From Panopea generosa (taxonomy: Eukaryota; Mollusca; Bivalvia; Adapedonta; Hiatellidae): 64,000 bases of DNA. Position 1 is the stretch's first letter. The number at the start of each line of letters is the position of its first letter. Location: positions 19,891,748 to 19,955,747 of the forward strand of contig CM055902.1 of NCBI GenBank assembly GCA_029582155.1. The letters are read 5' to 3'. Of the stretch, positions 11,226-41,645 are shown piece by piece. The notes beneath the pieces are model-generated. The model was not told where the DNA came from, did no database searches, and saw nothing but the letters and a program-made list of their open reading frames with translations. The position numbers and the translations under genes are program-made.

Positions 11226-12640
11226 CATGGCACTTCTTCATGAATATTGATGCTGTTTCGTGAACATTGACACTGTTTCGTGAATATTGGCATTGTTTTG
11301 TGAATATTGACACTGTTTCGTGAACCGCGACACTGTTTCGTGAACATTGACACTGTTTCCTATATGTACACTGCTTCGTGAATATTGCCACTTTTTTGCG
11401 AATATGTACACTGTTTCGTGAACATTGGCACTGTTTCGTATATATTGGCAATGTTTCGTAAATATTGGTACTGTTCCGTGAACACTGACACTGTTGCGTG
11501 AAATTTACACTGTTTCGTGAATATGGACACTGTTTTGTGAACATTAACACTGTTACGTGAACATTAACACTGTTACGTGAACATTAACGCTGTTACGTGA
11601 ACATTAACACTCTTTCGTGAACATTGACACTGTTTTGTGGAACATGACACTGTTTCGTGAATATTGGCATTATTGTGTGATTATTGACACTGTTTCGTAA
11701 TCATTGACACTGTTTCGTGAATATGTACACTGTTTCGTTAACATTGACACTGTTTCGTGAATACTGGCACTGTTTCGTGAATATTGGACTGTTTTGTGAT
11801 TATTGACACTGTTTCGTAAACATTGACACCATTTCGTTAATATTAAAACTGTTTCGTGAACATTGACATTGGTTCGTGAATATTGACACTGTATCGTCAA
11901 TATCTAAACTGTTTCGTGAATAGTGAATATTTAAACTGATTCGTGAACACTGTTTTGTGAACATTGACAACGTTTCGGGAATATTTAAACTGTTTCGTGA
12001 ACATTGACACTGTTTCGTGTTAATTTAAACTATTTCGTGAACACTGACACTGTTTTGTGAATATTTAAATTGTTTCGTGAACTTTGACACTGTTTCATGA
12101 ATATTAAAACTGTTCGTGAACATTGACACCGTTTTGTGAATATTTGAACTGTTTCGTGAACATTGACATTGGTTCGTGAATATTGACACTGTATCGTCAA
12201 TATCTAAACTGTTTCGTGAATAGTGAATATTTAAACTGATTCGTGAACACTGTTTTGTGAACATTGACAACGTTTCGGGAATATTTAAACTGTTTCGTGA
12301 ACATTGACACTGTTTCGTGTTAATTTAAACTATTTCGTGAACACTGACACTGTTTTGTGAATATTTAAATTGTTTCGTGAACTTTGACACTGTTTCATGA
12401 ATATTAAAACTGTTCGTGAACATTGACACCGTTTTATGAATATTTGAACTGTTTCGTGAACATTGACACTGTTTCGTGAACATTTACACGGTATCGTAAA
12501 TATTTAAACTGTTTCGTGCACATTGCCACTGTTTCGTGAATATTTAAACTGTGTCGTGAATATTGACACTGTTTCGTAAACTTTGACACTGTTTCGTAAC
12601 AACTGCATTGTTTCGTGAATATCAGGCCTGTCTCTTATGA
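11226..12640. repeat. 20-bp satellite, left array
   Basis: Degenerate 18-20 bp units around 'cactgtttcgtgaacattga'. A 300-bp higher-order unit is visible: 11821-12120 and 12121-12420 are nearly the same. The array passes directly into the single-copy part of the duplicated block at about 12630. Open frames through it on the minus strand are by-products of the repeat. Confidence 0.92.
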
Positions 12641-13524
12641 AGATAACCAAAACAATCCTGGAGTCTTACATCTAGAGACATTTTCTCCGAAGTTTCACCC
12701 ATCATCCTACGAATGTAACTATATGGCATGTGCTACTTTACTATGTCGCAGGGGACAGCAAAACTTAGTCGGAACAATTATTTTACTAAACTTGACAGTT
12801 TGAAAGAGTTATCAATGTCAATCATATATATTCTTCTATTGGTGTTTATATTTAATTTCATTTTGTACGATGGTTATCTTTCTGCTTTTTTATTTCTAGA
12901 TATTGAGCCTAGAATATTTCTTTGTTTTTAATAACTATTATTGGTACACAATTAAACCGCAGTTACATACCCTTACGCTCATTTAACCTCAAAATGTCAT
13001 TTTCTTAGTTTTCACTACTCGCAAAGTCAAAGATTTTTTGCAAGAAAAAAATGTCAAACCTACATATGTTTCATTCACACAGGTGCATTTTTTATTTTGT
13101 CCCAGTTTATTATTTACAAAGCTCTTTTGATGATGTTAGAGAAACACTTAATGTGTTCTGTGCCCATTTATCGTAACTTTAAATTTAACACCAAGAAGTT
13201 AGTGAAACGAACCCTGTATCTTACATTATAAGAAGTTGGTGAAACGAACACTACACCTTGTGCTTTAAGCAGTTGGTGAAACAAAACCTATATCTTACGC
13301 TTTAAGAAGTTGGAGAAACGAACCCTATATCTTACGTTATATGAAGTTGGTAAAACGAACCCTATATCTTACGTTATAAGAAGTTGGTGAAACGAACCCT
13401 ATTTCTTATGTTATAAGAAGTTGGTGAAACGAAACCTATATCTTACGTTATAAGAAGTTCTATCAATATTTAAAAATATGTGATTTCCAACTGCATTCGC
13501 TCATTTAGTCAATGGAATGTGCTA
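12082..13524. repeat. Left copy of 1443-bp direct repeat flanking the LINE
   Basis: Identical by eye to 19573-21015 with a constant offset of 7491. It holds the end of the 20-bp satellite, about 550 bases of single-copy sequence and a 37-bp repeat. Its right end (gcta at 13521-13524) abuts the 3' end of the LINE. See the finding on target duplication. Confidence 0.9.
13193..13457. repeat. 37-bp tandem repeat, about 7 units
   Basis: Units begin 'gaagttggtgaaacgaaccc' and continue 'tatatcttacgttataa'. The same array recurs at 20684-20948 inside the other copy of the 1443-bp block. Confidence 0.9.
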
Positions 13525-13886
13525 TTATTATCAACTTTTATTCCCCCATTTCTGGAGATTTTACAAACATTTGGATTTTATACATATAATATTACAATAT
13601 AAATACTATGATCACATTGTGAATTACAAAATAATAGTTAATATTTACAAAGTCTATGGTTTTATCATCGATGTAGATATAAATAACTGTCTTTATTCGT
13701 GAATTAAAGTAAATTATTTAAATCTGTTGTCTTGTTGTAGGACTCTAGTTTGAATGATTTATATGCACATTTAGGTTATTTCACCGAAACGAAACATGAA
13801 AATGTTTAAAGTGTGTATATCTTGTTTCAGGTCTTAATTCATTTTAATATCAGTCTCTACATGTAAATCATATAGACGTGCATTTG

Positions 13887-16800
13887 TTAACAAGCGTATA
13901 TTGATCTCAGGAAAGCAGCATTAAAGTTCATAAATTCTGAGATTTGCTTTACTGTTAACAGTGAAGATAAAAGTATATCTACATATCCAATCAAGAATAG
14001 TAATTGAATGTCTTTGGTACTGTTCCGTAGAAATGAGCATAGATCACTTGGAAACTGAATATTGAGAGAGTTCCAGTACGCCATCCTCGTGGATTGATGT
14101 TTATTACTGCTACAATCAAAAACTTTATGAAACAGTTCATCTGTATATTGTGCCTTGCATGTTAAACAGTTCTTTATTTGGTTTGGTTTTGGTGCACAGC
14201 ATAATTTGGCTAAGAATGTCATGGACTCGATGGAAGACGGATTCTCTAATGCAGTTAGCCAGACTGTTCCAGGAGATAGTTTATTGTGGACCCTTCGAAA
14301 CCGGAAGCAATCATCGTTTGCGTTAATTCGTAATAACCAATGCTGTTCTTCGAAGTTTATTATTGTTTTTTTACAAACACTTTTCCATGGTTCTTTTGCA
14401 GGAAATGTTGTTGATAACATGAATTGCTCGATATATTGTTCCAGTTTGTATTTTCTGAGTATTTGTAGGATATCGTTTATAAAGCCATTGTTTCGTTTTG
14501 TACACATGTTTTTGCATTGGTAAAGTCTATTGAGAAATAGCTGGAGCGTAATGTCTGTTGCTTTAAGTCTACAAATCGTACCAAGGAACGATAACTTTTG
14601 TAAGTCTATGTATGCTTCTAATGACGTGAACCCAAGTAAACCGGTGACCATGTCTGAGCGGGTAAGATGGGGTAGGTTCTGGATGCGTTTTAGACAGAAA
14701 TGGTGAGTAGCTTCTAAGTGAGACATGTCAGTTTTTGTTATATCATTCCATAGTTCACAACCAAATAGAGCTCGTGGTAGGACAATGGACGTGTAAAGTT
14801 TTGCTGCCGTTATAGGGTTGACGCCATTACTATGGATTCCGCAGTTTATTAACGAGAACAGCGATCCCCGCGTAGTTTGACGCACGATATCTACATTTGC
14901 AGGGGAGTTCCGTCTGTTATTCTGGATTATTCCAAGATGTTTGTATTCTTTGACGACTGGAAGTGGTTGATTTGCATAACACAGAGTATTGTCTTCCGGC
15001 CGATGACGTTGTTTCTGATTATGTATAAGTACAGCACATTTTGAGGCATTATACGAATAACGCCATTTGTTTGCGTAAGTGCTGCAAATTTTTATTAGTT
15101 CATTAAGTCCGTTTTTCGACAAAGACATCAGAACAATATCATCTGCTTGTGTAGGCGCGCAGAGAGACACGGAGTTTATTTTCAGTCCGTGGTTTGAAGC
15201 CTCGAGAGTATGTAGAAGTTCGTCAATGAGAACGGTATATAAGAACGGGGACCAAATGCTTCCTTGTCTGGTTCCCTGGTGGATTTGGAATCGAGATGAC
15301 AAATGCCCACAGGCATACACACGACTTGACCCTCCACGTAACATGTCGTTAAATATGCGCAATGCTTTACCACATATTCCAAGGTGATACAGTTTGTACA
15401 GAACCCCGGAGATCCATGTACGGTCGAACGCTTTCATAGCGTCCATAAAGCATGAATACATAACTTGATTACGTTCGTAAGTGTAATTGATTGCCTCTTG
15501 GTAGAGAAAAGAGACCATTTTACTGCTTTTTCCCTTTTGAAATCCATGTTGTAGTGGGTGTAATTTGGTTTGTAGATTCGTGTTACCTTCGATTCTTGTC
15601 AAAATTATTTTTTCAAAGATTTTTGAGATCACTGGAATTAAGGATATAGCCCTATAATTGTTTGGGTCTGTTTTTGATTTTCCACTACCTTTATGTAAAG
15701 TTATGGTTATACCGTTTTTAAATGATAATGGTACTTTTTCATGCCTTAAAATGCTGTTAAATAAACTTGTTATGTAGTTCACCAGTATTTCACCTCCGTG
15801 TTTTATGTGTTCATATGTAATGTTATCGCTGGAGGCACTTTTCCCATTTGGTAAGTTTTGTACTATTTTTAACAACTCTTTCGGGTTTAATGGTTTTATT
15901 AAGCAACTTGATAGATAGTTGTTTTCGTTTAAGTCGATTTTAGACTCGAGTTCCTTTTCCACTTTTGTTTTAAAAGTTTCATCAAAATGTGTATCGCAAG
16001 AAAATGCATAAAGATCGTTAAAATAATCTCGCCAGCCGTCTAGTATTCTTTCTGGATTTTTTTCAAGTTTATCTTTAAATATTATTTCACTGCCATTTTT
16101 TGCATTTCCTTTGTTTTTTCGTTTCGCTTTGATCACTTTCCAGAAACCTTTATGATCTAGTTCTGCCAACTTATCAATTCTTTCGTATTCTTCTCGATCA
16201 AACAGCCTTCCTGCAAGTCTCAGTTCATGTCTGAATATACGTTTTTGATTTTTATATTTTTTGTAAATTTCTCCAATTCTCGGCCGGTCATTTTTTAACC
16301 ATTCGATACGTGACGTAACCATGGATTTATGTAAGTTTTCTACCACTGGTGACCAGTATGGTTTAAGATATTTTTTAAATTTTCTCTTTTTGATACTGAT
16401 TTCTGCGCTATTTTGTAAACAAGCGATAATTTTCTCATACGAATCATTAACATTTTCAAAGTTAAAGGATGTGTTTTCCAAGCTTTTTTTAACCTGTGAT
16501 CTGTACATTTCCCTTTGCACATTCGATGACCAGTTGAAACAGTGTTTTGTAAATTGTTCAGATGTAACAAAAGCATTGTCAGTATCTAAATCAACCTGTA
16601 TTTGCATAAATATAGGCAGGTGACGAGAAACATTTAGTGGAGCTTCTTCTTCAATATAACACTCACGTACACAAGAGATCAGAGATTCATCAACCAGTAC
16701 ATGATCGATCAGACTTGGTGACATATTTACCCCTGGGATAAATGAGTAATTTGGGCCATTGCACATATCAGTTCCTGTTAACACTATTAGGTTATTCATT

Positions 16801-17336
16801 TCGGAGAGTGATCGAATATATTTATCTCGTGTTTTCGATATTATGGACGTTTTATTTCCAAGAAATTTAGCATTAAAGTCACCCATTAGAATAGTTTTAT
16901 CGCCATTGTCTATCACAGATAGTATGTCGTTCACTCTATCTACTTCCGATTTAAAAATGTCTATCTTTTCACTAGAACATGGTAAGTATACTTGAATGAC
17001 GTACAGATTGCAAGTTTTAAATGAAATCTTTATAGCAGCTATGCGTTCACTGAATGTTTCTATAGTTTGAACATAATCATTTAGTGATTTGTGCCAAAGA
17101 ATTGCCACACCGCCCTTTCCAAACAATCTACCATTAATTGATTTTGGATTGGATGTTGATATAACATGTGCTTCATAGTCATTGCTTAAACTGTCTAGTA
17201 TGTACGCGTTCTGCTGCAGGAGCCAGTGTTCTGATATGCCACAAACAGTAATATTCTTATTTTTTAGTTCCTTAAGCAGATAAGGAATGCCGGTCATAAG
17301 TCCAGTGCAGTTCCATGACATAATGTTATGATTCAT
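13887..17336 (-). CDS. LINE ORF2: APE endonuclease plus reverse transcriptase
   Basis: 1149 residues. It nicks target DNA and copies the element RNA onto it. The endonuclease domain spans about residues 1-245: SWNC at 7-10, the SEHW glutamate near 36, GDFN at 152-155 and SRHLP at 237-241 (in place of the commoner SDHLP). The reverse transcriptase lies about 500-780, with GFQKGKSS, the palm motif FMDAMKAFDR, a GTRQGSIWSP segment, QADD at 730-733 and KHLGI. The usual aromatic residue before ADD is Gln here. A C-terminal C-x2-C-x9-H-x4-C motif is at 1057-1075. The start ATG lies 11 bases after the ORF1 stop, so reinitiation is possible. No stop or frameshift is seen. Confidence 0.95.
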   Translation of the reverse strand: MNHNIMSWNCTGLMTGIPYLLKELKNKNITVCGISEHWLLQQNAYILDSLSNDYEAHVISTSNPKSINGRLFGKGGVAILWHKSLNDYVQTIETFSERIAAIKISFKTCNLYVIQVYLPCSSEKIDIFKSEVDRVNDILSVIDNGDKTILMGDFNAKFLGNKTSIISKTRDKYIRSLSEMNNLIVLTGTDMCNGPNYSFIPGVNMSPSLIDHVLVDESLISCVRECYIEEEAPLNVSRHLPIFMQIQVDLDTDNAFVTSEQFTKHCFNWSSNVQREMYRSQVKKSLENTSFNFENVNDSYEKIIACLQNSAEISIKKRKFKKYLKPYWSPVVENLHKSMVTSRIEWLKNDRPRIGEIYKKYKNQKRIFRHELRLAGRLFDREEYERIDKLAELDHKGFWKVIKAKRKNKGNAKNGSEIIFKDKLEKNPERILDGWRDYFNDLYAFSCDTHFDETFKTKVEKELESKIDLNENNYLSSCLIKPLNPKELLKIVQNLPNGKSASSDNITYEHIKHGGEILVNYITSLFNSILRHEKVPLSFKNGITITLHKGSGKSKTDPNNYRAISLIPVISKIFEKIILTRIEGNTNLQTKLHPLQHGFQKGKSSKMVSFLYQEAINYTYERNQVMYSCFMDAMKAFDRTWISGVLYKLYHLGICGKALRIFNDMLRGGSSRVYACGHLSSRFQIHQGTRQGSIWSPFLYTVLIDELLHTLEASNHGLKINSVSLCAPTQADDIVLMSLSKNGLNELIKICSTYANKWRYSYNASKCAVLIHNQKQRHRPEDNTLCYANQPLPVVKEYKHLGIIQNNRRNSPANVDIVRQTTRGSLFSLINCGIHSNGVNPITAAKLYTSIVLPRALFGCELWNDITKTDMSHLEATHHFCLKRIQNLPHLTRSDMVTGLLGFTSLEAYIDLQKLSFLGTICRLKATDITLQLFLNRLYQCKNMCTKRNNGFINDILQILRKYKLEQYIEQFMLSTTFPAKEPWKSVCKKTIINFEEQHWLLRINANDDCFRFRRVHNKLSPGTVWLTALENPSSIESMTFLAKLCCAPKPNQIKNCLTCKAQYTDELFHKVFDCSSNKHQSTRMAYWNSLNIQFPSDLCSFLRNSTKDIQLLFLIGYVDILLSSLLTVKQISEFMNFNAAFLRSIYAC

Positions 17337-17347
17337 GGTTTATTAAA

Positions 17348-19225
17348 TTAATTTTGATCGATATTTAAATACCTAGTACGGTACTCAGAACGTTGTAACC
17401 AGGGGCGACAACTGATCCCCGGTGGCCAAATGTCGGGATTTTCTACTAATACGGATTGATCTTCACTGATGACTATTTGTGCAGATTGACTATCGGACCT
17501 GCGTGTATATAGAAATTTTGCCGATTTATACACTACACCTAAATCAGTGAGAAATTCTTCAAGTCCATCCTGATCGCTTTCCAAGTCAATGCCTGTAATT
17601 ATGTAAGATTTCGATCTTTTTCTTATAACACCTTTAAAAGCATGACTACTGCGAAATGGCACGTTTATTTGAATTTCCATAGGATCGTCGTTTCTTCTAG
17701 CAGACGTTACCGGCGTCGTCGGGTGTGTGAGGTCTATTAACGGCGCTTCCGGTTGTTTGGATGCGTGATTGTCGGCTACTTCCGGTAACTTACTCATATG
17801 TATAAGCGGTGAAGCCCGTTGTCCTATTTTATTTTCGAGTTCCTCGCATTGAAGCGATTGTCCATTTGTGTTCACCAGTTTTTCTACCGACGACTGCAGA
17901 TTATGACTAAGTGCGTCAAATTTTGAGGCGATATCTTCGGAAAATAAAGAAAATGCCTTTTTAAAACACGACAACGGGTCATTCTGGGATATTTTCTTTT
18001 CCATTGTTTTAACTTTAGAGTCTAATGTTTTGATATGCTGATTTTCAATTGACACGATATTTTCACTTACAGTTTTTACATGTGTTTCTAGTTTGTCGTC
18101 TACATTTTTTAAATGCATTTTAAGACTCGTTTTCTCTTGTGTCTCAGAATCAAGGAGGTTTTCAATATTTATTGAATTGTCACTGTTTTTTTTACTTAAT
18201 TCCTCTAGTTCATTATAAACATGAGAACGACTATTGTCAAGTTTATTTACAAGTTTTGCTAAAGCGTCCAAGCCGTTTGACAGTTTTGTAGACTCGTCTG
18301 GTTTGACACTTTTGATATGCTTGGTCAGTATATTACTACATGAGATTAATTCTCCTTTCAGTTCTTCTAAGTCAGATTTTAAATCAATTGTGAATGTATT
18401 TAATTTATTTTTCGTTTCAGCAGCATCGACTTTTAACACATGAACCTCAGACTGAAGATGCGCGACATTATTTTTGAGAATGTTCATATCGTGCAGTAGA
18501 TCTGTGTTAAACTTTGGAGTTTGTGATACCGAGTTTCTTTGGGAAAATGATTGGTTTTGTTGCAAAGGGGGCTTTTTGAATAGTTCCTCTATATCGGTAA
18601 CGTTACCCTCCAGAAATTGAGATAAAAGATAACAATCTTGTGCGTATTTATCAGCAATTGAAAACTTTGAAGATTTACGTCTGTCCTTTAAAATTCCGAC
18701 CGGCGGATTATTACAGTGACGGGCCCGTAAGGCCAGCTCATTCCGATAAAGGGCTAAAGTTTCCTCGCACTTGCTTGTAATGTCTAAGATCGAGCTTATG
18801 TAAAGATCTTTTGATAAATGGACTAGACCATTATCCAAACGATCATGTATAACAGCTTCGATTTTGTACGCAGTCAGCATTTCATCTGTTTGTTTTTGAC
18901 CACACTGCAAATTGCCTTCTGCGTCTAAAACGGACGAATCCAGGTAACTCAGATTGGCATATTCAGTATGACTAGTTGGATTGTTCCCCATATTTACTGA
19001 CGGTATAAGAGGCACAAACGGGGTTAATTCAGCGGATTTCAGAAATGTTTGTTCATTATCGAAGTCCGGGTTTTCAATAGTCTTGACAGAGGTTGAGTGA
19101 TAGCTTTCATATTCGTTGAAACTGTGATTAAATACCTCAGAAGTATTTCCCGGATGTTTACTATCTTTGTCCGCCATAATTCGATAGCTATCATCCAGGC
19201 AAAGCGTATTATGCGTCCGTTGCAC
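17348..19225 (-). CDS. LINE ORF1: coiled-coil RNA-binding-type protein
   Basis: 625 residues. ORF1 proteins of this kind bind element RNA and form the ribonucleoprotein; this role is inferred. A long heptad-rich coiled coil runs from about 243 to 415 (for example VAHLQSEVHVLK, TMEKKISQ). The C-terminal domain, about 530-625, starts near KGVIRKRSKSYIITGID and ends with a DIWPPGISCRPW segment, resembling the C-terminal fold that follows the coiled coil in many invertebrate LINE ORF1 proteins. No CCHC zinc knuckle or esterase domain is evident. The ATG at 19225 is the first in frame; the exact start is uncertain. Confidence 0.85.
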   Translation of the reverse strand: MQRTHNTLCLDDSYRIMADKDSKHPGNTSEVFNHSFNEYESYHSTSVKTIENPDFDNEQTFLKSAELTPFVPLIPSVNMGNNPTSHTEYANLSYLDSSVLDAEGNLQCGQKQTDEMLTAYKIEAVIHDRLDNGLVHLSKDLYISSILDITSKCEETLALYRNELALRARHCNNPPVGILKDRRKSSKFSIADKYAQDCYLLSQFLEGNVTDIEELFKKPPLQQNQSFSQRNSVSQTPKFNTDLLHDMNILKNNVAHLQSEVHVLKVDAAETKNKLNTFTIDLKSDLEELKGELISCSNILTKHIKSVKPDESTKLSNGLDALAKLVNKLDNSRSHVYNELEELSKKNSDNSINIENLLDSETQEKTSLKMHLKNVDDKLETHVKTVSENIVSIENQHIKTLDSKVKTMEKKISQNDPLSCFKKAFSLFSEDIASKFDALSHNLQSSVEKLVNTNGQSLQCEELENKIGQRASPLIHMSKLPEVADNHASKQPEAPLIDLTHPTTPVTSARRNDDPMEIQINVPFRSSHAFKGVIRKRSKSYIITGIDLESDQDGLEEFLTDLGVVYKSAKFLYTRRSDSQSAQIVISEDQSVLVENPDIWPPGISCRPWLQRSEYRTRYLNIDQN

Positions 19226-19521
19226 TGGTGATGATAGCCCGGGGCAGTCTTTTTCCAGTTTTAATAAATCCGTAAAAACCGCTCACACTTTCCTAACACC
19301 TGTTAATCCGATCTCCATTATAGTTTCTTTGTCTTTTACGTTTTGCCCTGTATCTTAATTAATAAGATATGGGAGACACTACTGTTTTTGTAATCCAATT
19401 CCTGATTTATTAACACACAATTTGCTATATTTCATAAAGTTCTATGTTAAATATAACTATAGAAAATGTCCGATTTTTTGAGAGCTCAAAATAACCTGAC
19501 CGTCATTTCGCGGTCACACCT

Positions 19522-19522
<1 letters not shown>

Positions 19523-19572
<50 letters not shown>
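19523..19572 (+). repeat. Poly(A) run of 50 at the LINE 5' junction
   Basis: 50 A on the plus strand directly before the second copy of the 1443-bp block. It reads as poly(T) in the LINE direction. The preceding bases contain an inverted 'tgaccg...cggtca' motif. Confidence 0.9.
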
Positions 19573-19574
<2 letters not shown>

Positions 19575-21015
19575 TTGACACTGTTTCATGAATATTAAAA
19601 CTGTTCGTGAACATTGACACCGTTTTGTGAATATTTGAACTGTTTCGTGAACATTGACATTGGTTCGTGAATATTGACACTGTATCGTCAATATCTAAAC
19701 TGTTTCGTGAATAGTGAATATTTAAACTGATTCGTGAACACTGTTTTGTGAACATTGACAACGTTTCGGGAATATTTAAACTGTTTCGTGAACATTGACA
19801 CTGTTTCGTGTTAATTTAAACTATTTCGTGAACACTGACACTGTTTTGTGAATATTTAAATTGTTTCGTGAACTTTGACACTGTTTCATGAATATTAAAA
19901 CTGTTCGTGAACATTGACACCGTTTTATGAATATTTGAACTGTTTCGTGAACATTGACACTGTTTCGTGAACATTTACACGGTATCGTAAATATTTAAAC
20001 TGTTTCGTGCACATTGCCACTGTTTCGTGAATATTTAAACTGTGTCGTGAATATTGACACTGTTTCGTAAACTTTGACACTGTTTCGTAACAACTGCATT
20101 GTTTCGTGAATATCAGGCCTGTCTCTTATGAAGATAACCAAAACAATCCTGGAGTCTTACATCTAGAGACATTTTCTCCGAAGTTTCACCCATCATCCTA
20201 CGAATGTAACTATATGGCATGTGCTACTTTACTATGTCGCAGGGGACAGCAAAACTTAGTCGGAACAATTATTTTACTAAACTTGACAGTTTGAAAGAGT
20301 TATCAATGTCAATCATATATATTCTTCTATTGGTGTTTATATTTAATTTCATTTTGTACGATGGTTATCTTTCTGCTTTTTTATTTCTAGATATTGAGCC
20401 TAGAATATTTCTTTGTTTTTAATAACTATTATTGGTACACAATTAAACCGCAGTTACATACCCTTACGCTCATTTAACCTCAAAATGTCATTTTCTTAGT
20501 TTTCACTACTCGCAAAGTCAAAGATTTTTTGCAAGAAAAAAATGTCAAACCTACATATGTTTCATTCACACAGGTGCATTTTTTATTTTGTCCCAGTTTA
20601 TTATTTACAAAGCTCTTTTGATGATGTTAGAGAAACACTTAATGTGTTCTGTGCCCATTTATCGTAACTTTAAATTTAACACCAAGAAGTTAGTGAAACG
20701 AACCCTGTATCTTACATTATAAGAAGTTGGTGAAACGAACACTACACCTTGTGCTTTAAGCAGTTGGTGAAACAAAACCTATATCTTACGCTTTAAGAAG
20801 TTGGAGAAACGAACCCTATATCTTACGTTATATGAAGTTGGTAAAACGAACCCTATATCTTACGTTATAAGAAGTTGGTGAAACGAACCCTATTTCTTAT
20901 GTTATAAGAAGTTGGTGAAACGAAACCTATATCTTACGTTATAAGAAGTTCTATCAATATTTAAAAATATGTGATTTCCAACTGCATTCGCTCATTTAGT
21001 CAATGGAATGTGCTA
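19573..21015. repeat. Right copy of 1443-bp direct repeat flanking the LINE
   Basis: Repeats 12082-13524 without visible difference, including 20-bp satellite (19573-20120), single-copy segment and 37-bp repeat (20684-20948). After 21015 the sequence diverges completely from the left side. Confidence 0.9.
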
Positions 21016-22023: not shown

Positions 22024-22233
22024 AGGCCAGGCCCCGGTTTCACGAAACTACTTAAGTAAAATCTCAAGCTCAAACTCAAATATCTTACTCAAAATCTGAC
22101 TTAAGTTGAGTACGATTTCTGAGCGGTGTTCACGAAAAAATATGCGACTCAAAATGATGCTCAACTTTGAGCTTGAGTAGGATAATTTGAGACTGCTCAA
22201 GAGCTGTCTCAAATTTGCATTTGCTACTCAAAT
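22024..22233 (+). mobile_element. Harbinger-type terminal sequence / 5' region of the HARBI1-like gene
   Basis: 'ggccccggtttcacgaaact' at about 22030 resembles PIF/Harbinger terminal inverted repeats and the ends of the short element at 42822-43056. Direct and inverted variants of 'ctcaaactcaaat' follow, with a second 'gttcacgaaa' near 22128. It abuts the transposase start. No matching 3' end was found after exon 4. Confidence 0.45.
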
Positions 22234-25200
22234 ATGGCGGACTTCTTAAGACGTTTGCGTAGAATCCGTCGGATTGAACGGATTCCCCGGGTTATTCCAG
22301 ATCGATCAAACCCGTTAGAGGTACTGTCGGTGTCGGAAGTATATGAGCGCTATCGTTTTCGACCTCATTCCGTTGAGCAGATAGTGCTTCTCATTTACCC
22401 AAGACTAAATGCACCAACGAGACGTTCGTCACCCCTCCCACCTTTGTTGTCACTGTTGGTAGCGTTACAGTTTTTCGCATCGGGTACACATCAGCTCTTG
22501 ATCGCAGATATGCATCAAGTGTCCCGCTCGTCGGTTTGCAGAGCCATTCACCGGGTGACGGCTGCATTACGTGAACTACTGAAACAATTTGTTGTATTCC
22601 CAAGAGGAGAACGAGCCAGACAAATACAGCGAGAATTTTACAACATCGCGGGTAGGTTAAACAGCAAAACGCTGCTTTCTATTGGCGGTATGACTAAACA
22701 CCGGAAAGGGCCCTTTCCGCGGAAAGGGCTTTTCTAAACGGAAAGGGCCTACAAAACACACATTTTTAGTACAATTCTCATAAAATTGACTTTTAATCGT
22801 TTATAAACATGTTTTACGATATATCTGGGAGTTTCATAAATTTAAGTTGTGTTTTAAAGATTTTATAACAATAAAACCAATAATAAGGACTCAAAACGGC
22901 TCTGCGGAAAGGGCTTTTCTACACGGAAAGGGCCTACAAAACACACATTTTTGGTACAATTCTCATAAAATCGTCTTTTATTCATTTATAAACATGTTTT
23001 ACGATATATCTGGGAGTTTCATAAATTTAAGTTGTGTTTTAAAGATTTTATAACAATAAAACGAATAATAATGACTCAAAACGGCTCTGCGGAAAGGGCT
23101 TTTCTACACGGAAAGGGCCTACAAAACACACATTTTTGGTGCAAATCATATAAAATCGTCTTTTATTCATTTATAAACATGTTTTACGATATATCTGGGA
23201 GTTCCATAAATTTAAGTTGTATTTTAAAGATTTTGTAACAATAAAACGAATTATGACCCAAAAACGGCTCTGCGGAAAGGGCTTTTCTACACGGAAAGGG
23301 CCTACAAAACACACATTTTTGGTGCAAATCATATAAAATCGACTTTTAATCGTTTATAAGCATGTTTTACGATATATCTGGCAGTTTTATAAATAAAGTT
23401 GTATTCTAAAGATTTTATAACAATAAAACGAATTATGACCAAAAAACGGCTCTGCGGAAAGGGCTTTTCTACACGGAAAGGGCCTACAAAACACACATTT
23501 TTGGTGCAAATCATAAAAAATCGACTTTGAATCTTTTATAAACATGTTTTACGATATATCTGGGAGTTTCATAAATTTAAGTTGTATTTTAAAGATTTTA
23601 TAACAATAAAACGAATAATAATGACTCAAAACGGCTCTGCGGAAAGGGCTTTTCTACACGGAAAGGGCCTACAAAACACACATTTTTGGTGCAAATCATA
23701 TAAAATCGTCTTTTATTCATTTATAAACATGTTTTACGATATATCTGGGAGTTTCATAAATTTAAGTTGTGTTTTAAAGATTTTATAACAATAAAACGAA
23801 TAATAATGACTCAAAACGGCTCTGCGGAAAGGGCTTTTCTACACGGAAAGGGCCTACAAAACACACATTTTTGGTGCAAATCATATAAAATCGTCTTTTA
23901 TTCATTTATAAACATGTTTTACGATATATCTGGGAGTTCCATAAATTTAAGTTGTATTTTAAAGATTTTGTAACAATAAAACGAATTATGACCCAAAAAC
24001 GGCTCTGCGGAAAGGGCTTTTCTACACGGAAAGGGCCTACAAAACACACATTTTTGGTGCAAATCATATAAAATCGACTTTTAATCGTTTATAAGCATGT
24101 TTTACGATATATCTGGCAGTTTTATAAATAAAGTTGTATTCTAAAGATTTTATAACAATAAAACGAATTATGACCAAAAAACGGCTCTGCGGAAAGGGCT
24201 TTTCTACACGGAAAGGGCCTACAAAACACACATTTTTGGTGCAAATCATAAAAAATCGACTTTGAATCTTTTATAAACATGTTTTACGATATATCTGGGA
24301 GTTTCATAAATTTAAGTTGTATTTTAAAGATTTTATAACAATAAAACCAATAATAAGGACTCAAAACGGCTCTGCGGAAAGGGCTTTTCTACACGGAAAG
24401 GGCCTACAAAACACACATTTTTGGTGCAAATCATATAAAATCGTCTTTTATTCATTTATAAACATGTTTTACGATATATCTGGGAGTTTCATAAATTTAA
24501 GTTGTGTTTTAAAGATTTTATAACAATAAAACGAATAATAATGACTCAAAACGGCTCTGCGGAAAGGGCTTTTCTACACGGAAAGGGCCTACAAAACACA
24601 CATTTTTGGTGCAAATCATATAAAATCGTCTTTTATTCATTTATAAACATGTTTTACGATATATCTGGGAGTTCCATAAATTTAAGTTGTATTTTAAAGA
24701 TTTTGTAACAATAAAACGAATTATGACCCAAAAACGGCTCTGCGGAAAGGGCTTTTCTACACGGAAAGGGCCTACAAAACACACATTTTTGGTGCAAATC
24801 ATATAAAATCGACTTTTAATCGTTTATAAGCATGTTTTACGATATATCTGGCAGTTTTATAAATAAAGTTGTATTCTAAAGATTTTATAACAATAAAACG
24901 AATTATGACCAAAAAACGGATCTGCGGAAAGGGCTTTTCTACACGGAAAGGGCCTACAAAACACACATTTTTGGTGCAAATCATAAAAAAATCGACTTTG
25001 AATCTTTTATAAACATGTTTTACGATATATAAGTTGTATTCTAAATATTTTATAACAATAAAACGAATTATGACCAAAAAACGGCTCTGCGGAAAGGGCT
25101 TTTCTACACGGAAAGGGCCTACAAAACACACATTTTTGGTGCAAATCATATAAATTCGACTTTTAATCGTTTATAAACATGTTTTACGATATATCTGGGA

Positions 25201-27821
25201 GTTTTATAAATTTTAGTTGTATTTTAAAGATTTTATAACAATAAAACGAATAATAAGGACTCAAAACGGCTCTGCGGAAAGGGCTTTTCTACACGGAAAG
25301 GGCCTACAAAACACACATTTTTGGTGCAAATCATATAAAATCGTCTTTTATTCATTTATAAACATGTTTTACGATATATCTGGCAGTTTTATAAATTTTA
25401 GTTATATTCTAAAGATTTTATAACAATAAAACGAAGTATGACCCAAAAAACGGCTCTGCGGAAAGGGCTTTTCTACACGGAAAGGGCCAACAAAACACAC
25501 ATTTTTGGTGCAAATCATATAAAATCGACTTTTAATCGTGTATAAACATGTTTTACGATATATCTGGGAGTTTTATTAATTTAAGTTGTATTTTAAAGAT
25601 TTTATAACTATAAAACGAATTATGACCCAAAAACGGATCTGCGGAAAGAGCTTTTCTACACGAAAAGGGCCTACAAAACACACATTTTTGGTACAATTCT
25701 CATAAAATCGTCTTTTATTCATTTATAAACATGTTTTACGATATATCTGGGAGTTTTATAAATATAAGTTGTATTTTAAAGATTTTATAACAATAAAATG
25801 AATAATAGTGACTCAAAACGGCTCTGCGGAATGGGCCTACAAAACACACATTTTTGGTATTTTGTTCTTTAACTGTATACGCGGATAACGTGTCGGGGAC
25901 ATGAGTTATTAATTAACAAACCAGTGCTAATTATTTATTACAATATTTGAACACACTGAGAACGTGTCAGACACATGAGTTATTAATGAACAAGCCAGTG
26001 CTAATTATTAATTACAATAAATGAATACACGGAGTGCGTGTTAATGTCATGAACAAGCGAGTGCTAATTAATGCTTACAATTAATACAATTAATTATTGA
26101 AATTAGAATTTGAGTGATTAATGTTTTAAAGTCGATGCCATGTATATATATATATATATATGATTGACAAAAAGACTGTACGACATTCGATTGTCACAGA
26201 AGGCCAAACGAGAATGTTTTTGTTTTGACTAGATCTATACGGTTTATTAATATATAAGCCTATTCAATCAAGTAAAGAAAAGGTTTACACACTGCACAAC
26301 CGATGTTTTGCCAAACCAAAAATTTACTCAATTATCTAAGGCTTGTGCACTTCAAAGCACGTATTCGAATGAATTATATATTTTTTTAGTTGATCGCAAG
26401 GCCATAATAAATTAATTGCTAGAATTTCATCCCAACCAGCCCCATAATTTTCATGCCATTTAAAAAAGTTTTTTTTTTTCATAAAATAAAAAAGAAAAAC
26501 TATGATGATAATGTAGCAATTAATTTATAATGGCTTAATATATTTTTCAGTATAAGTATGGTCTGTTCATTTATATCTGGCCTCTCTTTCTCTCCATCTT
26601 TGATGACTTGTTGACGATTGACAGATTGAATATTAAGCACCATTTTATGCCATTGAGGGATAATAGACGATCAGTTGACCTAACTGTTAACTGGGATCCT
26701 GAAAGGTTAACCAGTACTTGAGTACACCCCATCACAGCAATACACTGATAACTTTCCAACTTGAATCAGTGGTGAACGATGAATAATAATGAGACGCAAT
26801 GTTGTACATCAACCATCACTGTAACTGTGGCTGCGCAGGGATTCAAACTCATAACCCCTGGATTGATAATCAGACGTGCCAACGGCTAAAACATTTTTTG
26901 CTCTTTGATGAATTGTAGAAATTTCTTTGTTAATTATTAATTAATCCAATATGTCCAACAATGAATCATTTGATCCTCCCTACTCCATCAATGAAAAAGG
27001 GGTGTTGTTACATATTGAAATGTATTCACATACTGGCCAAAATGTCATTCTAATGAGTGTATTGATGTAGCCTATATCTTGATAAAAAAAATATGCACAC
27101 TTCTTTAACAGTACATCTTATTAAATATACTCCAGCTAAATATATTTAATATACACTATAAATATTACATTGTCAGTACAAAAGCTTTATTTGTAGCTTA
27201 TATTTACTGTTTATACATCATGGTGATGTTAAAAAAAATTATTTGATTTGGTATTTATTTAACCTTAAGGATTTCCAAGGGTACTAGGTTGTGTTGATGG
27301 AACGCATATCAAGATACAGGCGCCACACGACAATGAAGTAGATTTTATCAACAGGAAAGGTTTCCATTCAATAAACGTACAGGTAAAACTTTAAACCACC
27401 TTTACCTATATTTGCTTTTGAGACAATAAACATATTTGAAACATTATTCTCAACTTCATATATTTATATTAAATGCTCTTGATACAATTAGCAGAGTTAA
27501 GTTAATTTTGTTTTATTTATATTTAAGCTTTGTCTTGACATTACATGACAGAAGATACAAGAAACTGTATTTTATGTTGGATGTACACATATAAAACACT
27601 AGCTGTAAAGCTATTAGATGATCATGTTAACTTTTATTTGTTATATGTATATATATATATACATTTACATGTATATTGCATAAGCATAATCACAAACAGT
27701 CATACAAGTATATCCATATAAACATTGCCTCCACCACCCCCACACACACAGTACTCATGCATAAACAAAAATTAACACAGACAGATGGACGGACCGACTG
27801 ACACCGACCGACAGACACAGA

Positions 27822-31121: not shown

Positions 31122-32844
31122 TTAAAATGGTGACCAGTTTCCTATTTTTAGGAATCCTTTCCTCTTCGTCTTCTGTTTCCTCTGTAAGTTACATATGTTC
31201 TGGCTTGGTAACGTTATTGTTTCCTGTAATTGCTTCATAGCTACGTCATTCGCCTCGATTTGCTGTTTTATTTTTTGTATCTCACGTTCTTTTTCTTTCT
31301 TTTCCTCATTAGATATATTAACCTCTCTTTCTAAAGCCATCACTTTTCCGTTAAAGTCAGTCTCAGCTTCAGCTCTGTTTTTCGCCAACTCCTCTTCCTT
31401 TTCTTTTATTTGCTGTTGTCGCTGTTCTTCCAATTTCGTCTCAAGAAGCTTTTGTTGAGTTTTGAACATCTGTTCAGTGTAACTTTCATTTCGATTATTT
31501 TTCATCATATCGTCAATGATTTTAAAAAAGTCGATAATTTTAGACTCCATCTCTTCTTTCTGATTTTCTTCGGGTAGAAATACATATCGAGACCCGCATT
31601 TTTCAACAAATGACATCAAATCCGATTGAAGGTCGTGCATATACTCCCGTTCCGTCATGTTCGCCGCTAGTTTAGTGAATGCTATCATGCTAAACGGAAG
31701 AATTCCCTCTCCGAACATATCTAAGTATGCCTTTACGCCTTCAACATCTTGTGGCGTATGACGCCCAGCATGGATGACGTAAATTATGGCGTGAGGACCA
31801 GGACTGGTCTCCCCTAAAAATGGAATAATTCGTTCCTGCAGATCCGAGAATGTCATGTCAGTATCAAAGAACCCTGGCGTATCGACCACTTTGACCGAGT
31901 GTCCATTTCTGATCGTTGTTGCTGATTGAACTGTTTTTGTTTCAGACCTGGATGTTCCCGAGACTCGGAATGCTTTGCTATTGGTTAATATATTTGCCAG
32001 TGAACTTTTCCCTGCCCCTGTCATGCCAAAAAGTGCAATCCTGTGCTCATCTGGTGATAAGAAATGGAAAGAAACTATTGAAACGTTATCCTTTATTATT
32101 TTATTTTAAATTTAATTATACGTGATTGAGACAGACAGACAGACAGACAGACAGACGGACGGACGGACGTTCTGGTGGAAGTGATGTTGTGGGGTGCGGT
32201 TTTTATATGTTATAAAACATCATTTTTTTCATAAAACAAAACAAAACCTATTTTCTTTCTAACCCTAATGTCACATACCTTGAGATCCAACCCTAATGAC
32301 ACGAAAAAAGAATGAAAAAAGGTGAAAAAAAAGTAAAAGAAAAATGAGAAAAAAAAATAGAATTAACCCTGCAATGCCATTTGGACGCATTTTCGCACTT
32401 GTGGGGTGAACATTGCACCCCACAAGTACCAAAAAAAAACAACACCACAGTGCCATTCTGTACTGGCAACGCAACCCACAACTGCCGCTCCAGACGTACG
32501 GACGGACGGACGTTCTTGTGGAAGTGATGTTGTGGGGTGAGGTTTTGATATGTTATAAAACATCTTTTTTTTCATAAAACAACAAAAAAAACTATTTTCT
32601 TTCTAACCCTTATATCACAAACCTTGAGATCCAACCCTAATGACACTAAAAAAGAATGAAAAAAGGTGAAAAAAAGTAAAAGAAAAATGTGAAGAAAATT
32701 AAATTAACCCCACAATGCCATTTGCACGGGTATTCGCACTTGTGGGGTGAACATTTCACCCCACAAGTACCAAAAAAAACCCACAAGTCCATTCTTTACT
32801 GGCAACTCAACCCACAAGTGCTGCTCCAGACGTACGGACGGACG

Positions 32845-35429: not shown

Positions 35430-38400
35430 CATTTATAGTCAACACTCAGTTATAATATCATACACCGCCCAGTCACTATTCAGTCATATTATCAAAAACC
35501 ACCAAGTCTCCACTCAGTCACATTATCATAAACCAACCAGTCACCAATTAGCCATATTATAATTCACCATCTAGTCACCACTCAGTCATATTATCATAAA
35601 CCAACCAGTCACCAATTAGCCATATTATAATTCCCCATCTAGTCACCACTCAGTCATATTATCATAAACAACCCTGTTACCACTCATTCATATTATCATA
35701 CACCACCCAATCACCACTGAGTGATATTATCATCCACAACCCAGTAACCACCAAGTTACCAATCAGTCATAGTATCAGACACCACCATTCACCACTCAGT
35801 CATATTATCAAACACTATCCAGTCACCACCAGACATACTATCATACACGACCAAGTCACCACTCAGTCATAATATCATACACCACCCAGTCACCACTCAG
35901 TCATAGTATCATACACCACCCAGTCACCTCTCAGTCATATTTTCATACACCAACCAGTCATAACTTAGTCATATTATCATACAGCATCCAGTCACCACTC
36001 AGACATACTTTCATACACGACCAAGTCACCACTCAGTCATATTATCATACATCAACCAGTCACCACTAAGCCCTATTATAAACCATCCAGTGACCACCCA
36101 GTCACACTATAATACACCACTCAGTTAACACTCAGTCATGTTATCATTCACCACCCAGTTACCACTCAGTCATATTATCATTCATCGTCCAGTTTTCACC
36201 GTGTCATATTATCATACGCCACTCAGTCAACACTAAGTCATATCATCATATATCACAAGTCACCACTCAGTCATATTATCATAGACCACCCAAACATATT
36301 AACATACACAACGCAGTCGCCACTCGGTAATATTATCATAAACGACCAAGTCACCACTCAGTCATATTATCATTCATTATCCAGTCACCACTCAGTCATA
36401 TTATCATACACCACCAGCCAACACTCAGTCATATCATCATACACCGCCAAGTCACCACTGAGTCATATAATCATCCAGAACCCAGTCATCACCCAGTCAC
36501 CTCTCAGTCATATTATCATACACCATCTTGTTACCACTCAGTCATACTATAATACACACCTAGTTAACACTCAGTATTAGTATCATACATTAACCAGTCA
36601 CCATCAAGTCATTTTATCATTCACAACCCAGTCACCACTCAGTCATATTATCATTCATAGTCCAGTTACAACCCAGTCATATTATCATACATTGCCCAGT
36701 CACCACTCAGTCATGTTATAATTCATCATCCAAGAACAACCAAGTCAAAGTATCATAGACCGCCCAGTAATCACCCAGTCATGTTATCATTCATCTTCCA
36801 GTTACCACCCAGTCATTGTATCATACACCACCCAGTCACCACTCATTCATAATATCATACTCCACACTGTCACCGTTCATAATTATTATAATACATAAAC
36901 CAGTCACCGTTTAGTCATATTATCATACACCACTCAGTCACCATTCAGTCATATTATCATACACCACTCAGTCACCATTCAGTTATTTTATCATACACCA
37001 TTAAGTTACCATTCAGTCATTTTATCATACACCATTAAGTTACCATTCAGTCATTTTATAATACACCATTAAGTTACCACTTATTCATATTATTATACAT
37101 GACCCAGTCATCACTCAATCATATTATCATACACCACCTAGTCACCACTCAGTCACATTATCATACATCACCCTGTCACCAATCAGTCATAATATCATAT
37201 CCCTCACAGTTACCACTCAGTCATATTAACTTACACCACCCAGCCACCACATATTCATAGTATTATACACCAACCAGTTACCACTTAGTCATATTATCAT
37301 ACATCACATAGTCACCACATATTCATATTATCATACACCAACCAATTACCACTCAGTCATATTATCGTACATCACCTAGTCACCACACAGTGATATGATC
37401 ATACATCACCCAGTAACCACTCAGTCATATTATCAAATACCATTCAGTACCACGTCAGTTATAATTATTATCATAAACCAACCAGTCACCACTCAGTCAT
37501 ATTATCATACACCACCCAGTACCAACTTAGTCATATTAGCATACATCACCCAGTCACCAATCAGTCATAATATTATACACCACCAAGTTACCACTCAGTC
37601 ATATTATCATCCACAACCTAATCACCATTCAGTCATACTATCATACACAACCAAGTACCAACTCATTCATATTGTTATACACCACCCAGTCACCACTCAG
37701 TCATATTATCATACATCACCCAGTCACCACTCAGTCATACCATCATACATCGCCCAGTCATCACTCAGTCATATTATCATACATCACACATTCACCACTG
37801 TCATAATATCATACACTACCCAGTCACCACTCAGTCATACCATCATACATCGCCCAGTCATCACTCAGTCATATTATCATACATCACACATTCACCACTG
37901 TCATATTATCATCCACAACCCAGCACCGTTCAGTAAGATATTCATATATCATCCAGTCACAACTCAGTCATATTATCATACATCACCCAGTCACCACTCA
38001 GTCATATTATCATCCACAACCCAGCACCGTTCAGTAAGATATTCATTTATCATCCAGTCACCACTCAGTCATATTATCATACACCACCCAGTCACCACTC
38101 AGTCATATTATCATCCACAACCCAGCACCGTTCAGTAAGATTGTCATACATCATCCAATCACCACTCAGTCATATTATCATAGACCACCCAGTCACCACT
38201 CAATCATATTATCATACACCATCCAGACACCTCTCATCATATTATCATCCACAACCCGGTCACCACTCAGTCATATAATCACACAACACCCAGTCACCAT
38301 TCAGACATACTTTTATACACCACCCAGTCACCACCCAGTCATATTATCATACACCACCCAGTCACCACCCGGTCATATTATCATACACAACCCAGTCACC

Positions 38401-41400
38401 ACCCGGTAATATTATCATACACCACCCAGTCACCACCCGGTCATATTATCATACACCGACCGGTCATATTATCATACACCACCCAGTCACCACCCGGTCA
38501 TATTATCATACACCACCCAGTCACCATCTGGTAATAATATCATATCCCTCACAGTTACCACTCAGTCATATTAACTTACACCACCCAGCCACCACATATT
38601 CATAGTATTATACACCAACCAGTTACCACTTAGTCATATTATCATACATCACATAGTCACCATATATTCATATTATCATACACCAACCAATTACCACTCA
38701 GTCATATTATCGTACATCACCTAGTCACCACACAGTGATATGATCATACATCACCCAGTAACCACTCAGTCATATTATCAAATACCATTCAGTACCACGT
38801 CAGTTATAATTATTATCATAAACCAACCAGTCACCACTCAGTCATATTATCATACACCACCCAGTACCAACTTAGTCATATTAGCATACATCACCCAGTC
38901 ACCAATCAGTCATAATATTATACACCACCAAGTTACCACTCAGTCATATTATCATCCACAACCTAATCACCATTCAGTCATACTATCATACACAACCAAG
39001 TACCAACTCATTCATATTGTTATACACCACCCAGTCACCACTCAGTCATATTATCATACATCACCCAGTCACCACTCAGTCATACCATCATACATCGCCC
39101 AGTCATCACTCAGTCATATTATCATACATCACACATTCACCACTGTCATAATATCATACACTACCCAGTCACCACTCAGTCATACCATCATACATCGCCC
39201 AGTCATCACTCAGTCATATTATCATACATCACACATTCACCACTGTCATATTATCATCCACAACCCAGCACCGTTCAGTAAGATATTCATATATCATCCA
39301 GTCACAACTCAGTCATATTATCATACATCACCCAGTCACCACTCAGTCATATTATCATCCACAACCCAGCACCGTTCAGTAAGATATTCATTTATCATCC
39401 AGTCACCACTCAGTCATATTATCATACACCACCCAGTCACCACTCAGTCATATTATCATCCACAACCCAGCACCGTTCAGTAAGATTGTCATACATCATC
39501 CAATCACCACTCAGTCATATTATCATAGACCACCCAGTCACCACTCAATCATATTATCATACACCATCCAGACACCTCTCATCATATTATCATCCACAAC
39601 CCGGTCACCACTCAGTCATATAATCACACAACACCCAGTCACCATTCAGACATACTTTTATACACCACCCAGTCACCACCCAGTCATATTATCATACACC
39701 ACCCAGTCACCACCCGGTCATATTATCATACACAACCCAGTCACCACCCGGTAATATTATCATACACCACCCAGTCACCACCCGGTCATATTATCATACA
39801 CCGACCGGTCATATTATCATACACCACCCAGTCACCACCCGGTCATATTATCATACACCACCCAGTCACCATCTGGTAATAATATCATATACCACCCAGT
39901 CACCACCCGGTAATATTATCATCCACCATCCAGTCACCACCCGGTCATATTATCATCCACAACCTCGTCACCATTCAGTCATATAATCATACAACACCCA
40001 GTCACCATTCAGTCAGATTATCATACACCACCAAGTCACCACTCGGACAGATTATCATACACCACCCAGTCACCACTCAGTCATATTATTATTTCCAACC
40101 ATTCACCGCTCAGTCATACTACCATACACCACTCAGTCACCGGTCAGTCATATGATCATACACCAGTCACCATTCAGTCATATTACCATTTACCACCCAG
40201 TCACCGCTCAGTCTTATAATCATACACCAGTCACAATTCAGTCCTATGATCATACATCACCCGCCAATATCCGGTTTTATTATCATACATTACTCAGTCA
40301 CCGCTCAGTCATATTATAATACACTACCCAGTCACCGCTCTGTCATATTATCATACACTACCCAGTCACCGCTCAGTGATATTATCATACACTACCCAGT
40401 CACCGCTCAGTGATATTATCATACACTACCCAGTCACCGCTCAGTCATATTATCATACACTACACAGTCACCGCTCAGTCGTATTATTATACACTACCCA
40501 GTCACCGCTCAGTCGTATTATTATACACTACCCAGTCACCGCTCAGTCGTATTATTATACACTACCCAGTCACCGCTCAGTCGTATTATCATACACCACC
40601 CAGTCACCGCTCAGTCGTATTATCATACACCACCCAGTCACCGCTCAGTCGTATTATCATACACCACCCAGTCACCGCTCAGTCGTATTATCATACACCA
40701 CCCAGTCACCGCTCAGTCATATTATCATACACCACCCAGTCACCGCTCAGTCGTATCATCATACACAACCCAGTCACCGCTCAGTTGTATTATCATACAC
40801 CACCCAGTCACCGCTCAGTCATATTATCACCCAGTCACCGCTCAGTCATATTATCATACACCAACCAGTCACCGCTCAGTCATATTATCATATACTACCC
40901 AGTAACGCTCAGTCATATTATAATACACCACCCAGTCACTGCTCAGTTATATTATCATACACTACCCAGTCACCGCTCAGTCATATTATTATACACTACC
41001 CAGTCACCGCTCATTCATATTATCATACACTACCCAGTTACCGCTCAGTCATATTATTATACACTACCCAGTCACCGCTCGGTCATATTATCATACACCA
41101 CCCAGTCACCGCTCAGTCATATTATCATATACTACCCAGTAACGCTCAGTCATATTATAATACACCACCCAGTCACTGCTCAGTTATATTATCATACACT
41201 ACCCAGTCACCGCTCAGTCATATTATTATACACTACCCAGTCACCGCTCATTCATATTATCATACACTACCCAGTTACCGCTAAGTCATATTATTATACA
41301 CTACCCAGTCACCGCTCGGTCATATTATCATACACAACCCAGTCACCGCTCAGTCGTATTATTATACACTACCCAGTCACGGCTCAGTCATATTATAATA

Positions 41401-41645
41401 CACTACCCAGTCACCGCTCATTCATATTATCATACATTACCCAGTCACCGCTCAGTCATATTATTATACACTACCCATTCACCGCTCAGTCATATTATTA
41501 TACACTACCCAGTCACCGCTCAGTATATTATTATACTCTACCCAGTCATAGCTCAGTCATATTATTATATACTACCCAGTCACCTCTCAGTCATATCAGC
41601 ATACACTACCCAGTCACCGCTAAGTCATATTATTATACAACACCC
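35430..41645. repeat. 34-bp satellite, about 6.2 kb
   Basis: Roughly 180 units around 'cagtcaccactcagtcatat' plus 'tatcatacaccacc'. The left part is diverged; the right part (40340-41640, with 'cagtcaccgctcagtc') is homogeneous. Because 34 is not a multiple of three and the unit has no stop in any plus frame, open frames of up to 415 codons occur in overlapping frames. These are not genes. A 1345-bp higher-order duplication is described separately. Confidence 0.95.
37191..39880. repeat. 1345-bp tandem duplication within the 34-bp satellite
   Basis: 37191-38535 and 38536-39880 are adjacent direct copies; landmarks such as 'catatccctcacagttacca' recur with constant offset 1345. I saw only one difference ('gtcaccacatattc' versus 'gtcaccatatattc'). 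Confidence 0.9.

Follow-up and report, generated by a model that had tools for sequence, protein, structure and literature searches.

A LINE between two copies of a 1443-bp target block in Panopea generosa, and the variable target alterations of its family

A 64,000-bp stretch of the genome of the bivalve Panopea generosa (contig CM055902.1 of assembly GCA_029582155.1, forward-strand positions 19,891,748–19,955,747), termed the window below and numbered from its first letter, contains a long interspersed nuclear element (LINE) that has the same 1443-bp block of DNA on either side. With a probability of roughly 0.83, the LINE inserted recently and in full length on the minus strand and made a genuine target-site duplication of 1443 bp, as a member of a family that has no fixed distance to the second-strand break. 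Comparison with sibling copies supports long target duplications as a trait of the family, and 1.4 kb is inside the family's range.

The LINE and its duplicated target

The sequence-only reading, a note made earlier from the letters of the window, had described identical 1443-bp direct repeats that bound the LINE exactly and have different outer flanks, and this block-LINE-block arrangement is confirmed. The two block copies (Table 1) show 0 differences in 1443 positions, and both adjoin the LINE directly. Two further A residues agree on the left side of the block and are indistinguishable from the A-run at one LINE junction; immediately beyond these, the outer flanks of the two copies diverge. 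A search of the 1.474-Gb, 39-contig genome found the full block in these two places only (18 of 18 candidates scored, 21 matches), and the other 19 matches are to the neighbouring array (77% and 89%) or are partial matches elsewhere (65–86%). The repeats of a long terminal repeat (LTR) retrotransposon are part of the element and common to its copies; the block is not of this kind, because it occurs in full only here and sibling LINEs have other flanks.

The left edge of the block is inside a 20-bp minisatellite, and the right edge runs on into other DNA. A 406-bp internal repeat of the minisatellite (96.6%) crosses the 12081/12082 boundary without interruption, and thus the left flank, a single block and the right flank together probably represent the natural empty site.

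Table 1. Positions of the LINE, its target block and the putative break sites in the window
Feature	Position	Strand	Basis
20-bp minisatellite holding the second break	11237..12619	no strand	tandem-repeat reading of window
Putative second-strand break, 1443 bp from the first	12081..12082	-	outer edge of duplication
Target block copy adjoining LINE 3′ end	12082..13524	+	1443/1443 match to 19573-21015; genome search
Putative first-strand nick, + strand ...GTGCTA/CTATTT in empty site	13524..13525	+	3′ flanks that start with TA
Full-length LINE body, 5′ start GTGTGAC to 3′ end GATAATAA	13525..19519	-	sibling 5′ and 3′ ends
AATAAA, 12 nt before LINE 3′ end	13537..13542	-	sequence reading
ORF2, 1149 codons, apurinic-type endonuclease and reverse transcriptase	13887..17336	-	Pfam and PDB matches
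Endonuclease motif Ser-Arg-His (human L1: Ser-Asp-His)	16620..16628	-	alignment to human L1 ORF2p
ORF1, 609 codons from first ATG	17348..19177	-	open frame; no Pfam match above cut-off
Extra GAG at 5′ junction	19520..19522	-	comparison with sibling 5′ ends
A50 (T50 in LINE sense) at 5′ junction, last two A's ambiguous with target	19523..19572	+	
Target block copy adjoining LINE 5′ end	19573..21015	+	identity to 12082-13524; genome search

It should be pointed out that both LINE open reading frames (ORFs) are on the minus strand, and therefore position 13525 is the 3′ end of the element, the 5′ end is at 19519–19522, and the run of 50 A residues is a T50 upstream of the LINE when read in its own sense. 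The sequence-only reading had counted a junction poly(A) with the LINE; as a 3′ tail it is ruled out, because the reading frames run on the opposite strand. The actual 3′ end, which reads ...AATAAAAGTTGATAATAA with its AATAAA 12 nt from the end, is at the other side, at 13525. A retrocopy of an antisense transcript, with the A50 as its tail, is disfavoured as well, since both ends of the element are family ends and the 200 plus-strand bases before the A-run contain no AATAAA or ATTAAA.

ORF2 matches the Pfam families RVT_1 (3.2e-25) and Exo_endo_phos (4.3e-6), and its closest PDB match is human L1 ORF2p (E 6.2e-30), which scores above R2. Endonuclease and reverse transcriptase domains in one ORF, together with many copies that have a common 3′ end and variable 5′ truncation, characterize the element as a LINE of the apurinic endonuclease (APE) type. 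A ribozyme at the LINE 5′ end was looked for in Rfam, with no match at E up to 1 over positions 13000–20200, and one scan of viral contigs confirmed no relatives of the LINE there.

At least 39 siblings are present in the same genome. For the first 800 bases of the LINE, 40 matches were scored (of 95 candidates), and 24 have 94–100% identity, a number that includes the window copy and some partial matches. The last 800 bases also gave 40 scored matches (of 201 candidates, window copy included) at 94–100%, and all 40 end at most 3 bases from the query end. Of the siblings, 18 have a 5′ end that starts no more than 5 nt from that of the query, and 14 of these start exactly at GTGTGAC, the equivalent of position 19519 and 3 nt inside the GAG of the window copy; the GAG is therefore extra sequence also. 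The ends common to the siblings show that both ends of the window LINE are the family's own. A T50 as a family feature was considered and rejected, as a T-run is absent from 18 of 18 sibling 5′ ends read; among the 5′ ends read, T50GAG belongs to the window copy only. The window LINE is young and was probably inserted recently.

Two observations concern individual siblings. A leader, TTAGCCAT, precedes GTGTGAC in L013, L016 and L021, and in L013 it is outside the target; transcripts may begin some 8–10 nt upstream of GTGTGAC and bring along the flank of the parent copy. L010 and L011, about 2.6 Mb apart on contig C22, are one and the same LINE insertion in almost identical flanks, which is either a segmental duplication or a retained haplotype. 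L011 was left out of the counts below.

Target alterations in sibling copies

The sequence that follows the 3′ end of each sibling was compared with that which precedes its 5′ end, out to 1.5–4 kb. The 3′ flank was read in 36 insertions; L026 is outside this number, with no 3′ end at the expected place. Six siblings have target duplications, of 30–2950 bp, and four have deletions (Table 2).

Table 2. Target alterations and extra nucleotides at the 5′ junction in the window copy and its siblings
Copy	Alteration	Size	Differences, or empty-site reference	Extra nt at 5′ junction
L019	duplication	30 bp	1 mismatch	9
L023	duplication	~182 bp	2 mismatches in 181	47
L080	duplication	243 bp	1 mismatch	none
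L010	duplication	455 bp	1 mismatch	10
Window copy	duplication	1443 bp	0 mismatches	53 (T50GAG; two T's ambiguous)
L030	duplication	2265 bp	1 mismatch in first 455	2
L013	duplication	2950 bp	1 mismatch in first 456	8-9
L017	deletion	1386-1392 bp	two intact reference repeat copies	11
L090	deletion	84-88 bp	one reference copy	none
L092	deletion	51-57 bp	one reference copy	none
L086	deletion	51-58 bp	one reference copy	

The interpretation offered in the sequence-only reading, in which the target site was duplicated by a second break very far from the first, is thus upheld, and the long flanking repeats that it proposed to look for at other copies of the LINE are present at these six. It had considered 1.4 kb to be extreme; within a family whose duplications extend to 2950 bp, the window copy is not an outlier. 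The offset between the two breaks was measured in 11 of the 36 insertions and is about −1390 to +2950 bp. None of the 11 is within the usual 5–20 bp, the nearest being the 30 bp of L019, and the narrow peak of short duplications that would mark second-strand cleavage specified by the element is absent.

In six of the seven duplications the two copies have one or two private differences, which suggests that they aged apart, unlike copies generated by an assembly error. For the two longest duplications the far ends were read, and the middles of L013 and L030 are unread on the 3′ side. Deletions were measured against intact copies of the repeat that was hit, which stand in for the empty site, and the ranges given for L090, L092 and L086 reflect 4–7 bases common to LINE and target.

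The first step of insertion looks regular, as most flanks start with TA and the LINE 3′ end is TAA-rich. The 3′ flank starts with TA in 28 of the 36 insertions, versus a background of 0.10 estimated from the flanks, although two of the 36 (L089 and L093) begin alike and are perhaps non-independent. Seven flanks have one to five additional TAA units after the common 3′ end. Insertion at ready-made breaks, independent of the endonuclease, would be expected to show no site preference of that enzyme; the TA preference is compatible with cutting, with pairing to the TAA-rich tail, or with membership of the TA in the tail in some copies. An element-defined 3′ end and a TA at the priming site agree with the anatomy of first-strand priming, which appears to take place from a TA site on the TAA-rich end of the LINE.

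The 5′ junctions vary (Table 2). Truncated copies L080, L090 and L092 are joined without extra bases, L090 and L092 at 4–6 bp of common sequence. The 5′ junction of another truncated sibling, L028, carries about 15 nt of the LINE 3′ end in inverted orientation. This inverted piece suggests that priming occurred a second time, at the other break. If the window copy resembles L028 in this, its T50 may be the cDNA copy of a poly(A) tail on which the 3′ end ...CAAAGTT of the second break had primed. The 3′ flank of L028 also has a 98% inverted copy 33 kb away (L028 with upstream L071; L108).

Alternatives, the control family and the endonuclease motif

An unlikely explanation, but the one that deserves most attention among the alternatives, is duplication by template switching, whereby the A-tail of the cDNA would land 1.4 kb upstream on the sister or homologous duplex with no staggered double nick. 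The AA common to both sides of the window junction and the extra nucleotides at six other measured 5′ junctions are as this would have it, and the 11 extra nucleotides of L017 recur 96 bp into its own 3′ flank. However, two bases of microhomology are weak evidence, and the deletions need a break on the other side, whereas two loose breaks account for duplications and deletions by one mechanism.

The looseness might instead belong to the host, if processing of the second strand were impaired as in human cells deficient in nucleotide-excision repair (NER); every LINE in the genome would then follow. In three NER-deficient human cell lines taken together, L1 produces duplications of >100 bp in 47 of 58 inserts (4/7, 21/23 and 22/28), 18 of them over 1 kb, and a remote second nick, placed more at random, is put forward by the authors as a speculation (PMC5223499); the same L1 also causes different target alterations in different cell lines (PMC4245944). 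The control, another LINE family of the same genome with a 1279-codon frame, was read in four copies. Duplications of 16 bp and of 13–15 bp are present in one copy each, and no long duplication was recognised in the 1.5–1.9 kb of 5′ flank of three copies. As two of the four have no clear duplication, the control leaves some room for a host effect, but the short duplications in the other two make it improbable, and, with the caveat of small numbers, the looseness of the second break appears to be more a property of the family than of the host.

Some matches and some candidates for the control were set aside. In control copy C13 the 3′ flank has 27-bp exact and 86% 59-bp matches in the 5′ flank, which were not counted because they start away from the 3′ junction and look like a local repeat. 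A related 73% family on contig C20 was dropped, its copies having upstream sequence in common, and L126, first taken as a truncated control copy, was dropped because it looks internally deleted. A search of the genome with the RVT_1 profile (150 of 17971 candidates scored) showed other LINE-like frames, many of them long and open. Several other groups among these have frames open for about 1166–1319 codons, and the frames of a group score almost the same; the genome has several young lineages of LINE.

An assembly duplication had been listed as an alternative by the sequence-only reading, and would mean that a haplotype carrying the LINE and one lacking it were joined at the A50 homopolymer. 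The homopolymer is exactly at one junction and the evidence is assembled sequence. Nevertheless the assembly is chromosome-scale (39 contigs), and six other, unlinked loci repeat the structure without a junction homopolymer and with private mismatches, so that an artefact is very improbable. Recombination between alleles with and without the LINE, also listed there, is disfavoured by argument, since homologous exchange alone could create neither inner junction. A later rearrangement, in which a normal insertion is followed by tandem duplication of block and LINE, broken in the A-run, and then by a crossover with an empty allele, might draw on the minisatellite DNA that the block adjoins; it requires two rare events, one of them with its break precisely at the end of the LINE, and their recurrence at six unlinked loci, and can be considered remote. 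An insertion that made no duplication, into the boundary between two block copies that were already in tandem, is compatible with the sequence of this one locus. However, the LINE would have had to hit a single exact base, by a chance that recurred at six further loci, and this is hardly credible.

A possible basis for a family effect is found in the endonuclease. In the alignment to human L1 ORF2p, the family has Ser-Arg-His (SRH) where L1 has Ser-Asp-His (SDH). All 14 copies read have SRH (the window copy, L080 and 12 others), and all six frames read of the control family have SDH. A pattern search for SDH was uninformative, with 1 match, as many as in its reversed control. The activity of human L1 depends critically on H230 and is not significantly affected by the S228A change (PMC4837594), and the residue between these two is the Asp that is changed to Arg in the family. 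It can be conjectured that the conserved Arg is a candidate cause of the loose second cut.

Several points weigh against a 1443-bp target duplication by a family without a fixed second break. Evidence at the locus and at the siblings consists of assembled sequence. The offset was measured in only 11 of the 36 insertions; among the 25 that carry no measured offset, some could hide duplications of 3–5 bp. The smallest duplication, that of L019, is not far from normal, and in the deletion sizes the empty site is represented by only one or two copies of the repeat. Fifteen insertions have no second copy of the flank. Eight of these are full-length (L012, L014, L015, L016, L018, L021, L025 and L027) and, apart from an AT-rich 8-mer in L025, lack any repeat of ≥6 bp close to the junction, although 3–5 bp is still possible and L014 has a possible 5-bp duplication. 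The other seven are apparently truncated (L078, L079, L081, L082, L084, L085 and L091), very short duplications being outside the test. Absence of second copies is probable and not proved, because each genome-wide flank search scored 40 of 497–1520 candidates. Ten insertions (L020, L024, L028, L077, L083, L087, L088, L089, L093 and L094) were assigned to no class. The control is four copies of one family, two full-length copies of which gave only 7–8-bp candidates, and the role of SRH is a correlation only.

The 36 insertions thus comprise 7 duplications, 4 deletions, 8 full-length and 7 truncated copies with no second flank copy, and the 10 unassigned. In the genome-wide search for second copies, 18 of the 3′ flanks were fetched as one set and 11 were searched, in rounds of 5 and 6; the 7 left out were six repetitive or simple-looking flanks and that of L094. 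L086, L090 and L092 of the deletion class have no nearby second flank copy either. A 77% match that starts 101 bp upstream of L018 was too weak to count, the 8-mer of L025, 109 nt upstream, was taken as chance, and empty-site candidates for L020 and L028 were uninformative and unused.

Mechanism, known systems and other features of the window

A target duplication with a distant second break could arise as follows. The plus strand would be nicked at 13524/13525, and its 3′-OH (...CTA) would prime cDNA synthesis at the TAA-rich 3′ end of the LINE. The other strand would be broken 1443 bp to the left, and not by an endonuclease cut with a fixed stagger; candidate sources of this break are a nick that arose by chance, a nuclease of the host, or the LINE enzyme working at a distance. 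Gap filling of the separated ends would copy the block and give the duplication, and in siblings where the second break was on the other side, the stretch between the breaks would be lost as a deletion. T50GAG would have been added while the LINE 5′ end was joined. The T50 could plausibly have come about if the 3′ end ...CAAAGTT, left by the second break, primed on a poly(A) tail, and an alternative is an RNA that started upstream in a T-run.

A broader proposal is put forward tentatively, at somewhat less than even odds: that this is a natural, recently active family that no longer governs second-strand cleavage, perhaps by way of the fixed Asp-to-Arg change, and that it uses any opposite-strand break within a few kilobases. 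Its insertions might thus often make a large duplication or deletion too, and the family would then exemplify in nature the 'random-cleavage' mode, which the field had put aside in the case of LINEs.

Long target alterations by LINEs are on record. The L1 inserts of NER-deficient cells come from an engineered element in mutant cultured cells, whereas the present family is a natural germline one in which deletions occur also, and the genome has another LINE family with short duplications in two of the four copies read. Extremely long duplications are also mentioned for 5′-truncated L1 inserts in HeLa cells (PMC2912911). With zebrafish ZfL2-2 in chicken DT40 cells, one wild-type insert has a 1228-bp duplication, and 5 of 25 Ku70-/- inserts have long deletions (343–50187 bp; PMC2666801). 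However, 24 of 25 wild-type ZfL2-2 inserts altered ≤20 bp (PMC2666801), and none of the 11 offsets here is so short. The rotifer element R9, specific for ribosomal DNA (rDNA), generates a 126-bp target duplication (PMC6895275, PMC2861651). It is likewise a natural LINE with an unusually long duplication, which is described as one long stagger at the rDNA; in the present family the sites are scattered and the offset is about −1390 to +2950 bp.

Under the 'specific-cleavage model', clades have peaks of duplication length, at 13–15 bp for L1, 3–5 bp for L2/CR1 and 10–12 bp for RTE (PMC4245944). These clades and the present family are alike in priming at the element 3′ end and in extra nucleotides at 5′ junctions. 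The 11 offsets show no sharp peak, and resemble rather the older 'random-cleavage model' (PMC4245944). A natural LINE family with routine kilobase offsets was not found by searches that covered open-licence papers and opened a minority of those listed. Kilobase duplications by LINEs in cultured cells are already in print.

Second-strand cutting is a long-standing open step of LINE insertion, and one published line of work has each LINE fix the distance (PMC4245944). A family without a fixed distance beside a short-duplication family in the same genome makes this step testable by a comparison of the two endonucleases. Ordinary LINE insertion can also yield kilobase tandem duplications and deletions as a by-product, and identical direct repeats around a LINE need not mean an assembly error.

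The remainder of the window has three frames for AIG1/GIMAP-type GTPases at 31122–32105, 43338–44297 and 61921–62928, all on the minus strand (Pfam AIG1, E 8e-35 to 1e-39), with minisatellites interspersed among them. A 6.2-kb array of 34-bp units extends over 35437–41646 and contains two identical 252-codon frames, 1345 bp apart (37380–38138 and 38725–39483); this pair is a recent local duplication. The frame at 22186–25836 has a weak HTH_23 match below the cut-off, runs directly into a 185-bp tandem array, and presumably resembles a HARBI1-type transposase gene.

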